In this document: piece after piece, positions 28,542 through 56,690 of the stretch | Layout of the letters: every line of letters starts with the position of its first letter | Numbering within the stretch: the stretch's first letter is position 1 | DNA from: Actinomycetota bacterium | GTDB taxonomy: Bacteria; Actinomycetota; Acidimicrobiia; Acidimicrobiales; Ilumatobacteraceae | Reading direction: 5' to 3' | Assembly (NCBI GenBank): GCA_005790505.1 | Contig: SXUP01000017.1 | Span: 1-64,000 of the forward strand | Length of the DNA stretch: 64,000 nt | Translations under genes and position numbers: made by a program | The notes under the pieces: model-generated | Databases searched by the model: none | What the model saw: only the letters and a program-made list of their open reading frames with translations | Told to the model about the DNA's origin: nothing

Positions 28542-29063
28542 TTACGCGGGCGGTTTGTGTGACTCGCCCAATTCGGCGTCCGTGTTGTTTAAGGCAATAA
28601 CAAATCGTTCAAATAAGTCAGCAACCTGGGGGCGCTCGTCAGCACTGTATTCGGCAAGAATGTGCGACAAGACCTGCAAGCGGCGAGAGGCAATAGCGGC
28701 ATGCTGATCTCTGCCGATTTGCGTGGCGCGAACTTTGACCACTCGTCCATCCCCATCATGGACGACTCTCTCGGCCAATCCACCTGGGATAAGTCGCTGG
28801 ATTGCCCTCGTGGCAGTGCTTGGATCGATGTGCAGTGCCAGTGCAAGATCACACATGCGCCATTCATCCTGTTGTACCAACAAATCAAGAGTGTCGACTT
28901 GACCAGGTTCAAGCGCATCAGACCCGTTCCCAAATACTCGATCTCGGATAGAACTGACTGCTGCCCCACGTCGAATGTCTCTCCACGCCGTGCCAATGCG
29001 AATGGCGAGTTCGAGCTCTTTTTTAGATGTGAGATCGATCGGTGAATTTTTTATTTTGAACAC
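28542..29063 (-). CDS. MarR family transcriptional regulator
   Basis: 173 residues from the GTG at 29063. Winged helix: PGQVDTLDLLVQQDEWRMCDLALALHIDPSTATRAIQRLIPGGLAERVVHDGDGRVVKVRATQIGRDQ, the usual MarR order. An open frame extends 111 bases further upstream but would run through the divergent gene, and the GTG is placed exactly 6 bases after TACCCT, so the leaderless start is preferred. It likely controls the divergent alpha/beta hydrolase, with which it shares the promoter core. Ligand unknown. Confidence 0.84.
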   Translation of the reverse strand: MFKIKNSPIDLTSKKELELAIRIGTAWRDIRRGAAVSSIRDRVFGNGSDALEPGQVDTLDLLVQQDEWRMCDLALALHIDPSTATRAIQRLIPGGLAERVVHDGDGRVVKVRATQIGRDQHAAIASRRLQVLSHILAEYSADERPQVADLFERFVIALNNTDAELGESHKPPA

Positions 29064-29068
29064 ATGGC

Positions 29069-29075
29069 TAGGGTA
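29069..29075. promoter_or_regulatory. Symmetric shared -10 (TAGGGTA) for two divergent genes
   Basis: The seven bases TAGGGTA read TAGGGT on the plus strand and TACCCT on the minus strand, both TANNNT. Downstream of each hexamer a GTG start lies at 7 bases (plus, 29082) or 6 bases (minus, 29063). One DNA element would thus drive both genes as leaderless mRNAs, and RNA polymerase could fire only one way at a time. Confidence 0.55.
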
Positions 29076-29081
29076 TCTAAC

Positions 29082-29774
29082 GTGAGTGATGAAAGCCACA
29101 AAATAAGTACTCCGTTGGAGGCACTTGGCGTTATAGCCAGCCAGTATGTGATGTTGACTCCGACATTGAGACATGTCGAGATGTACACGATGAAGGGTTT
29201 ATTGACAGCACTCTGGCACGAGCCAGAAACTGACCTTTGTTCGGTCGGGGTCGTGGCCTGTGGTGGGGCTATGGGTGGACTGCTTGGACCAGGCGAGGGT
29301 CTGTATCACGAACTTGGACAAGTTTTGTCAGAGCAAGGGGTGCCAACCTTGCGAGTGAGTTACCGAAGACCCAATGACATGGATGCGTGTTGCGTGGATG
29401 TTGCCGCAGCAGTTCAGCTATTGGCTGGTAGTGGCGTCGAGAGGGTGGTCATTATGGGGCATAGTTTTGGTGGAGCAGTTGCCGTGCGGGTAGCGGTTGC
29501 ACTGCCCGAGATGGTGGCAGGAGTAGTAACATTTTCCACACAATCGGCTGGGTGCGAGATTGCTGGCGGACTTAATGGGCGACCTCTTTTGTTGTTCCAT
29601 GGTGACAAAGACGAAATTTTGCCAGTAGAGGCAAGCGAAGTGGTCAAAGCGATTGCTGGGCACGGAGATTTGCATGTCATGAGTGGAGATGGACACCTTT
29701 TGGGCAGAAGCCATCAGACAATGTTGGATCTCTTGGTTCCGTGGCTACGCCACGTTTTTGGCCTGCATACTTAA
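29082..29774 (+). CDS. Alpha/beta hydrolase
   Basis: 230 residues from the GTG at 29082, preferred over an ATG at 29064 because of promoter spacing. The nucleophile elbow is GHSFGGAVAVRVA (Ser about 124), the acid is in HGDKDEILPVEA and the His in GDGHLLG, so the triad is complete. A CGGAMGGLLGPGEG segment takes the place of the oxyanion loop. Dienelactone-hydrolase/esterase-like; soluble; substrate unknown. Divergent from a MarR regulator that probably controls it. Confidence 0.83.
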   Translation: MSDESHKISTPLEALGVIASQYVMLTPTLRHVEMYTMKGLLTALWHEPETDLCSVGVVACGGAMGGLLGPGEGLYHELGQVLSEQGVPTLRVSYRRPNDMDACCVDVAAAVQLLAGSGVERVVIMGHSFGGAVAVRVAVALPEMVAGVVTFSTQSAGCEIAGGLNGRPLLLFHGDKDEILPVEASEVVKAIAGHGDLHVMSGDGHLLGRSHQTMLDLLVPWLRHVFGLHT

Positions 29775-54728: not shown

Positions 54729-55700
54729 CTAGAGCACAATTTCGTTGCGGAGACTCAAACCTGCGGCGCGCCGCTTGACATTTTCAATAAAAATCAGAGC
54801 AGCACGATGATGAGACTGTGGCGTTGTTGCCGAATTATGCGGTGTGATAATCACATTAGGCATATCCCATAATGCGCTTTCAGTCGGAAGTGGCTCAGTC
54901 TCAAATACATCAAGACCTGCCCCGCCAAGATGTCCTGATTGCAGCGCAGCAATAAGTGCGGGTTCATCAACCAACTCTCCTCGCCCAACATTTATAAAAC
55001 ATGCACCCGGTTTCATTGATGCAAAAATTTGGGCATTGATAATCCGCCGCGTGTCGGCATTGAGCGGTAGCGCTACGACAACCCAGTCAGCTTGAGCGAG
55101 TACGGCTGATAAATCAGTCATTGAATATGTTGGGCATGATTCATCGCCGCGCGGAGTACGTCGACAAGCAATGACATTCATGTCAAGGGCATGAGCCAGT
55201 CGCACCACCTCTTGACCAATGGCTCCCAATCCGATCACAGCGATCGTTGTTCCTGGAAGTTCTTGAAAACTGCGTTGTTGCCATTCGTGACGCTGTTGCG
55301 CTCGCTGCCACTCGGGCAGATTGCGACTGAGGGCGAGTAAATACATGACGACTGTTTGTGCGATAGGAGACGAAGAAGCCCCGGCAGAATTCGTGATGCG
55401 GATTCCACGCTCTAACATTGTTTGGAACACAGGACTATCAACCCCTGATGAAAAAGTGTGTAGCCATTTTAAGTTGGGTGCTTTGAGAATTGAGATCATC
55501 ATCTCACGAGTGCGCAATGGCCAAACATCGCCGGAGAAAAATGCTGTCGTGATTCTGTCCAATATTTTGGCTGGAAGTGGCTCCGCGGATGTGAGCAAAA
55601 TTGGCTCAATTGTCGGATCTGCGTTCAGCAGTTCTATACCGTAACTTTCCCAAACGGTATCGCTGACAAACATCACATGTGATTGCACATTATTTTCCAT
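54729..55700 (-). CDS. D-2-hydroxyacid dehydrogenase family protein
   Basis: 323 residues. NAD-binding fold TIAVIGLGAIGQEVVRLAHALDMNVIACRRTPRGDE, catalytic Arg in INVGRGELVDEPAL, Glu in LDVFETEPLP and His in ITPHNS. Reduces a 2-oxoacid or oxidises a 2-hydroxyacid with NAD(P); it looks like the GhrA/GyaR-type branch but the substrate is open. The ATG lies 6 bases after TAGTCT, predicting a leaderless mRNA. Confidence 0.88.
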   Translation of the reverse strand: MENNVQSHVMFVSDTVWESYGIELLNADPTIEPILLTSAEPLPAKILDRITTAFFSGDVWPLRTREMMISILKAPNLKWLHTFSSGVDSPVFQTMLERGIRITNSAGASSSPIAQTVVMYLLALSRNLPEWQRAQQRHEWQQRSFQELPGTTIAVIGLGAIGQEVVRLAHALDMNVIACRRTPRGDESCPTYSMTDLSAVLAQADWVVVALPLNADTRRIINAQIFASMKPGACFINVGRGELVDEPALIAALQSGHLGGAGLDVFETEPLPTESALWDMPNVIITPHNSATTPQSHHRAALIFIENVKRRAAGLSLRNEIVL

Positions 55701-55706
55701 ACCCTA

Positions 55707-55712
55707 AGACTA
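55707..55712 (-). promoter_or_regulatory. Predicted -10 element, leaderless (TAGTCT)
   Basis: TAGTCT ends 6 bases before the dehydrogenase ATG at 55700. Confidence 0.5.
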
Positions 55713-55721
55713 CGAAGCAAG

Positions 55722-55727
55722 TAACAT
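55722..55727 (+). promoter_or_regulatory. Predicted -10 element, leaderless (TAACAT)
   Basis: TAACAT ends 6 bases before the GTG at 55734; back to back with the element at 55707-55712, nine bases apart. Confidence 0.5.
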
Positions 55728-55733
55728 AATGCG

Positions 55734-56690
55734 GTGTTGTTGATTCTTTCTCCGATGTTTTTTATTGTGGGATTGATAAACCCCGCACACATAGGCTCTG
55801 GTGATTCAGTTCAACCCACCGACACCGTGAGTATTATTCGGTCGGTGACTCCAGAACCACGGGGTGCGATAAGTGTGAGCATTGTTGGTGGCGATACTTT
55901 CGTAAGGGTGAAATCTAATGGTGCAGCGGTGCAAATACCTGGTTACGAGAATGAGCCGTATCTAAAAATTGATGCCAATGGAATCGTTTCGGTAAACGAA
56001 AGGTCAATTTCTTCATTTGTAAATTCCACACGATACGGCGCAACGCAACTACCCGATATCACATCACCTGCTCCTGCCGTCTGGAGAGTTGTCGCGCGAG
56101 ATGGCACCGCAATATGGCATGACCATCGGTCGCATTGGATGAGCGCCAAACGACCAGCAGTGATTGATTCTGAAGGAACAGTCCTAAATTGGCAGATTCC
56201 AATCATTGTCAATGGCACAACGACGGTTATCGCAGGCACCCTTTATTTGCAACGCTCAGCATCAGCATGGTGGTGGCTTTTGGGGATCCCGTTGTTATTA
56301 ATCGCTGCGGTGGCGACATCCCTTCAACGTCAGCGCAGTGCTGTTGTTGCTTTGGTTGTGTCACTGGCAACACTGATAGTCGGATGGTTTGAGTATGTAG
56401 GACTGCCAGATTCAGTACGCACTGCTCCAACGATGATTGTTTTTTCTGTCATTTCAATGTTCATTGCAGTATTTGCACTGCTAAGAAACCGAGATGATTC
56501 TACAGACGGCGCACTGTGTGCAGGTTCGGGCATGGTAATGATGCTTCTTGCATGGTTAGTGCGCGAGCAAATATATCGCGCTTATATTCCAGGTCTTGAC
56601 GCAGAATGGTGCGCCCGAACAGTGATTATCGCATGCCTATCGAGCGGATTGGTGCTAACACTTGATGGGGCAAGGAGGGTGTTGCGCTAA
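55734..56690 (+). CDS. Membrane protein with extracytoplasmic WHDHRSHW domain
   Basis: 318 residues from GTG. Signal/anchor helix (1-14), then an extracytoplasmic beta domain of about 170 residues with VAIWHDHRSHWM-type motif (TAIWHDHRSHWMSAKRP) and PIIVNGTTTVIAGTLYL, then five membrane helices. The His-rich motif recalls actinobacterial proteins of copper/envelope gene sets, but no function is established. The last four bases overlap the sigma factor gene end to end. Confidence 0.7.
   Translation: MLLILSPMFFIVGLINPAHIGSGDSVQPTDTVSIIRSVTPEPRGAISVSIVGGDTFVRVKSNGAAVQIPGYENEPYLKIDANGIVSVNERSISSFVNSTRYGATQLPDITSPAPAVWRVVARDGTAIWHDHRSHWMSAKRPAVIDSEGTVLNWQIPIIVNGTTTVIAGTLYLQRSASAWWWLLGIPLLLIAAVATSLQRQRSAVVALVVSLATLIVGWFEYVGLPDSVRTAPTMIVFSVISMFIAVFALLRNRDDSTDGALCAGSGMVMMLLAWLVREQIYRAYIPGLDAEWCARTVIIACLSSGLVLTLDGARRVLR

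Follow-up and report, generated by a model that had tools for sequence, protein, structure and literature searches.

TAGGGTA as a predicted bidirectional -10 element of divergent marR and hydrolase genes in the freshwater acIV genus

A MarR-family regulator and an alpha/beta hydrolase diverge from a very short gap in a MAG of freshwater acIV type (Ilumatobacteraceae-like; its own genus is the acIV genus). The symmetric element TAGGGTA in that gap probably acts as one bidirectional -10 for both genes, each of which would be leaderless or nearly so. Judging from sequence comparison, we put the probability of this reading at roughly 0.8. The element has stayed unchanged in all 31 loci that we aligned, and the two-way reading thus appears to have been selected for rather than to be a by-product of symmetry, as the shared element is frozen while the rest of the locus drifts.

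Geometry of the gap and the two start codons

The window, by which we mean the whole 64,000-nucleotide stretch that was analysed, carries the two genes back to back (Table 1). The predicted regulator has a MarR winged helix domain, with a PF01047 match above the cut-off. Coordinates given in the earlier note held when we re-read them in the sequence: TAGGGTA reads TANNNT on both strands, 18 bases (ATGGCTAGGGTATCTAAC) separate the GTG of the minus-strand gene (29063-29061) from that of the plus-strand gene (29082-29084), and these codons lie 6 nt (MarR) and 7 nt (hydrolase) past the ends of the hexamers. The two hexamers, TAGGGT and TACCCT, overlap by five bases, and TA...T can be read on both strands with reciprocal -11A and -7T, which is the form of a symmetric -10.

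Table 1. Positions of the genes, predicted promoter elements and related divergent pairs
Feature	Position	Strand	Description
MarR-family regulator, 173 aa, GTG start	28542-29063	-	Pfam MarR PF01047, E 1.8e-7
Alpha/beta hydrolase, 230 aa, GTG start	29082-29774	+	Pfam Abhydrolase_1, E 2.6e-9
Gap sequence including both start codons	29061-29084	+	CACATGGCTAGGGTATCTAACGTG
TAGGGTA	29069-29075	both strands	symmetric TA-NNN-TA element common to both genes
TAGGGT	29069-29074	+	predicted -10 of the alpha/beta hydrolase; GTG 29082 follows after 7 nt
TACCCT	29070-29075	-	predicted -10 of marR; GTG 29063 follows after 6 nt
Alternative hydrolase start (TATTTT 29052-29057, ATG 29064)	29052-29066	+	judged unlikely
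GNAT-like/endonuclease III pair, divergent	G000:C5:63465-63488 (L060 3465-3488); L211-L226		starts 23 bp apart
TesB-like/nitroreductase-like pair, divergent	G000:C2:94272-94295 (L055 14272-14295); L241-L249		

Orthologues of the regulator begin at the position equivalent to GTG 29063. An ATG farther upstream, at 29174, was rejected as the MarR start, as the orthologues do not use it. On the hydrolase side, an in-frame ATG at 29064 adjoins the MarR start, has its own TATTTT 6 nt upstream, and was missed by the earlier note. This ATG is without a counterpart in the three closest relatives, which have ATG or GTG at the position of 29082, and GTG 29082 is therefore the better start. The query for the Abhydrolase_1 profile was translated from 29064; the start at 29082 was set by the orthologues.

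In the mechanism we propose, TAGGGT on the plus strand would start a leaderless hydrolase mRNA at or beside GTG 29082, and TACCCT on the minus strand would start a marR mRNA, with no leader or almost none, at or beside GTG 29063. A2 and T6 of TAGGGTA would work on both strands, as -11A and -7T of each, while T1 would matter to the hydrolase alone and A7 to MarR alone. The predicted start sites are 18-19 bp apart here, and the start codons of relatives lie up to about 22 bp apart (19-22 bp in nearly all loci compared). RNA polymerase would occupy TAGGGTA in one orientation at a time. MarR would most likely bind over the same bases and lower transcription in both directions, combining autoregulation with control of its target. 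If both mRNAs are leaderless or nearly so, the start codons stand at distances fixed by the promoter, and sequence alone would predict both RNA ends.

Conservation of TAGGGTA and of leaderless promoters in the clade

The hydrolase is present in 27 of 32 genomes of the genus, and most of the genus has the divergent pair. TAGGGTA occurs once in the gap of every same-genus MarR/hydrolase pair with a readable MarR side (26/26). It is also found, between different flanks, in five pairs of other lineages (L093, L094, L096, L097 and L100). The tree, built from MarR and the hydrolase, and the alignment covered 31 loci from the genus and neighbouring lineages. Each of the seven TAGGGTA columns showed zero Fitch changes in these loci; the 243 flanking columns averaged 6.9 changes, with none at zero. 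L185, beyond the aligned set, keeps the element too. Because the identity of MarR to the window protein falls to 44% among these loci, this invariance is not a matter of shared ancestry alone. No conserved block of columns suited to a -35 box was found on either side of the gap in the 31-locus alignment.

The earlier note had asked whether the motif and both spacings hold in related genomes. The motif does, without change, in all 31 loci; the spacings do in part. The hydrolase stands at the leaderless distance (TANNNT 6-7 nt before ATG or GTG) in every locus, at 7 nt in the window's own clade and 6 nt in the rest of the genus. On the MarR side only the own clade (4 loci) has a gap of 6 nt; it measures 8, 9 or 10 nt in other same-genus loci, the 10 nt of L022 being counted to a second in-frame ATG. 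The five pairs of other lineages and L185 have a hydrolase gap of 7 nt and a MarR gap of 8-9 nt. Thus the MarR start follows TACCCT by 8-10 nt, not 6-7, in 27 of the 31 loci aligned. As the start lies 8-9 nt past the hexamer in most relatives, marR may have a leader of 0-4 nt. As a prediction, the claim that both genes are leaderless therefore stands for the hydrolase, and for marR it becomes leaderless or led by 0-4 nt.

The motif follows the gene pair. When one-way leaderless -10s of orthologues were compared in the same genomes, the hexamer and the next base were kept in only 6/28 and 2/25 cases. TAGGGTA is absent from the hydrolase orthologues L101-L112, in whose examined loci no MarR match was found. 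Two MarR homologues with no hydrolase in the locus examined, L186 and L187, have CAGGGTA, in which T1 is lost and TACCCT persists, at 10 and 9 nt, respectively, from the MarR start.

Several counts support the view that leaderless TANNNT promoters are widespread in this clade. In 729 kb of the window's own genome, TANNNT precedes candidate starts 104 times at 6 nt and 61 times at 7 nt, with about 17 at each other offset. A second count used codon-based gene calls (made by simple scoring of ORFs and codons rather than taken from an annotation) over 1.06 Mb of the own genome, which is approximately 2.0 Mb in size, and over 0.4 Mb from each of two congeners. Hexamers at 6 and 7 nt preceded 138 and 83 of 927 genes in the first of these three genomes, against 23 per offset. 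In the second they preceded 49 and 45 of 364 genes, against 4, and in the third 61 and 31 of 376, against 5. A smaller shoulder appears at 8-10 nt before starts in the same three genomes. No -35 signal was found among the leaderless genes. TAGGGT ranks third among the hexamers enriched in the leaderless position, at 5.1-fold, whereas TACCCT is enriched only 1.3-fold; given this difference in usage, transcription is probably stronger towards the hydrolase.

Overlapping leaderless hexamers occur in 6 of 261 divergent pairs in the three genomes, and the MarR/hydrolase locus is the only one of the six with a whole hexamer in common. The remaining five share just a TA (ANNNTANNNT), with starts 23-24 bp apart and all at one offset (Poisson ~3e-4, before correction for the offsets examined). 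Two of these five were followed through the genus. Of the same-genus loci compared, 16/16 have AGGGTACC[CT]T between the genes for a GNAT-like protein and endonuclease III, and in 9/9 the 10-mer ATAGTAGGGT is identical between those for a TesB-like and a nitroreductase-like protein. Neither pair includes a regulator, so strong conservation of overlapping -10s needs no operator.

Other divergent pairs have short gaps too. At 55700-55734 of the window, a 2-hydroxyacid dehydrogenase-like gene (minus strand) and a gene for an unknown membrane protein (plus strand) each have TANNNT 6 nt before the start, with a gap of 33 nt. At G000:C3:97241-97268, 26 nt separate the starts of divergent SelA-like and SelD-like genes, and TANNNT-like boxes are present on either side.

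Competing explanations and the MarR operator

One alternative is chance: a symmetric hexamer might fall in a short gap by accident. With a pattern as short as TANNNTA, the window alone could not rule this out, but seven columns without change in 31 loci where start codons, spacings and flanks have all changed already refute it, and we give it practically no weight. It is improbable, too, that only the hydrolase uses the element, as TAGGGT, and that marR is transcribed from elsewhere, for example from inside the hydrolase gene. The unequal enrichment of the two hexamers would fit such one-sided use. However, A7, which the MarR side alone requires, is unchanged in 31/31 loci, whereas an A follows the leaderless hexamers of the own genome in only about 15% of cases (17/104 and 8/61). 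In MarR homologues without the hydrolase, too, either TACCCT or a different TANNNT stands 6-10 nt ahead of a start, in 9 of 12 cases where 0.12 were expected under a null taken from the whole locus, which is somewhat generous to our claim. Even less probable, in our estimate, is that the motif is the -10 of an alternative sigma factor of SigB/F/G type (GGGTA[TC]) and not a housekeeping element. The SigF-type -10 resembles GGGTAT/C, and a GTTT lies at the right distance in L003-L005 (by eye). That GTTT is not conserved, though; the bases after GGGTA vary, T1, A2 and the whole MarR side are left unexplained, and a search of 21 genomes gave no SigBFG match above the family cut-off in any genome of the acIV genus, all such matches lying outside it.

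The alternative to be taken most seriously is that TAGGGTA, a possible MarR operator core, is kept mainly in that role, with the -10 function one-directional or secondary. The palindrome TTGTANNNTACAA is found near the start of distant MarR homologues whose recognition helix (STATRA) is conserved. It occurs at up to 2 mismatches in 8/28 of these homologues and in 2/782 background windows (Fisher 3e-11), two of the eight being MarR/hydrolase pair loci. Its core, TANNNTA, has the same form as the shared -10. The basal pairs L093, L094, L096, L097 and L100 have its half-sites and match it with 2 mismatches. The GGG is invariant as well, which is more conservation than a -10 alone seems to need, and binding by a protein may therefore carry part of the constraint. 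On the other hand, the flanks in the acIV genus mismatch TTGTANNNTACAA at 4-6 of 10 positions, conservation ends exactly at 7 bp, which is short for a MarR operator, the promoter spacing to both starts is kept, and the pairs without a regulator are similarly invariant at their overlapping -10s. We regard a mainly operator role as possible but rather unlikely. Binding of MarR at TAGGGTA is itself likely from the form of the palindrome core and the matches in the basal pairs, even though the acIV flanks are gone. It is compatible with the bidirectional -10 that we favor. We give even odds to a wider proposal, in which the MarR operator core TANNNTA doubles as the bidirectional -10 for a pair of leaderless genes, with the repressor and a polymerase in either orientation competing for seven bases, and in which bidirectional leaderless promoters form a standing, conserved class in these Acidimicrobiia.

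TTGTANNNTACAA lies close to the start of the MarR homologues L191, L196, L210 and L204 and is a candidate operator for this MarR group. In L191 and L196 it contains the MarR -10, and a transporter-like gene (family assigned by eye) lies on the other side. An extended palindrome, GTTAC-TAGG-GTAAC, was considered and dropped, as it occurs in some congeners only and is absent from the own clade. A search for a MarR regulon with CTAGGGTA gave 3 sites in the own genome and no clear regulon.

Comparison with known bidirectional and leaderless promoters

If the two-way reading is right, the locus offers an evolutionary test of bidirectional promoters, beyond the reach of expression data alone. Since T1 and A7 would be strand-specific, the claim can be tested by single base changes. 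The same logic can list candidate bidirectional mRNA promoters in any genome rich in leaderless genes.

Symmetric -10s are known to yield divergent RNAs, whose start sites are separated by 18, 10 or 23 bp (PMC12825309, PMC10268837). TAGGGTA has the same design as the bidirectional promoters of Warman et al. (2021, 2026), in which a single -10 serves either strand through reciprocal -11A and -7T, and its predicted start-site distance is close to their 18 bp optimum. Those promoters are from E. coli and Salmonella, and leaderless genes go unmentioned in the portions of these papers used here. At the present locus, unlike the promoters described there, both RNAs are predicted to be leaderless or near-leaderless mRNAs, one of them encoding a regulator, and the element stays unchanged throughout a genus and in loci outside it. 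Steric exclusion does occur at bidirectional promoters of E. coli, but these fire too rarely at the basal level for competition to matter until one direction is activated (PMC12825309). This tempers the earlier note's claim that transcription of the two genes would be mutually exclusive.

Leaderless promoters of Actinobacteria have TANNNT about 6-7 nt before ATG or GTG and no -35, and in mycobacteria a 5'-terminal ATG or GTG is enough for a leaderless mRNA to be translated (PMC3898074, PMC3160421, PMC4633059). They have been described gene by gene; here one hexamer would be common to two genes. A close precedent is prpD/Rv1129c of M. tuberculosis, a divergent target and regulator whose mRNAs were both mapped as leaderless. 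The passage on this pair mentions no -10 common to both genes, and the start codons were revised inwards (Met26, Val9), which makes the gap longer (PMC3898074). Two further systems resemble this locus in pairing a divergent regulator with its target. The promoters of lysG/lysE in M. tuberculosis overlap, and the regulator binds between the two genes (PMC5648196). In C. glutamicum, crtR encodes an autoregulated MarR and was reported leaderless (PMC5401885). Their intergenic regions, 108 and ~200 bp, are longer than the 18-nt gap, and in neither do operator and promoters coincide in a single hexamer that serves two leaderless genes.

The earlier note called the arrangement unusual. That judgment has to be narrowed, as a leaderless divergent regulator and target are known from prpD/Rv1129c and shared-TA promoters recur in the genus. 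It survives for the sharing of a hexamer: the literature searched gave no account of a single hexamer used by two leaderless genes, which is not proof of absence. Symmetric -10s and leaderless divergent regulator/target pairs are thus each known, and what appears to be new is their combination in one element, its invariance, and the presence of similar conserved promoters in the same genus.
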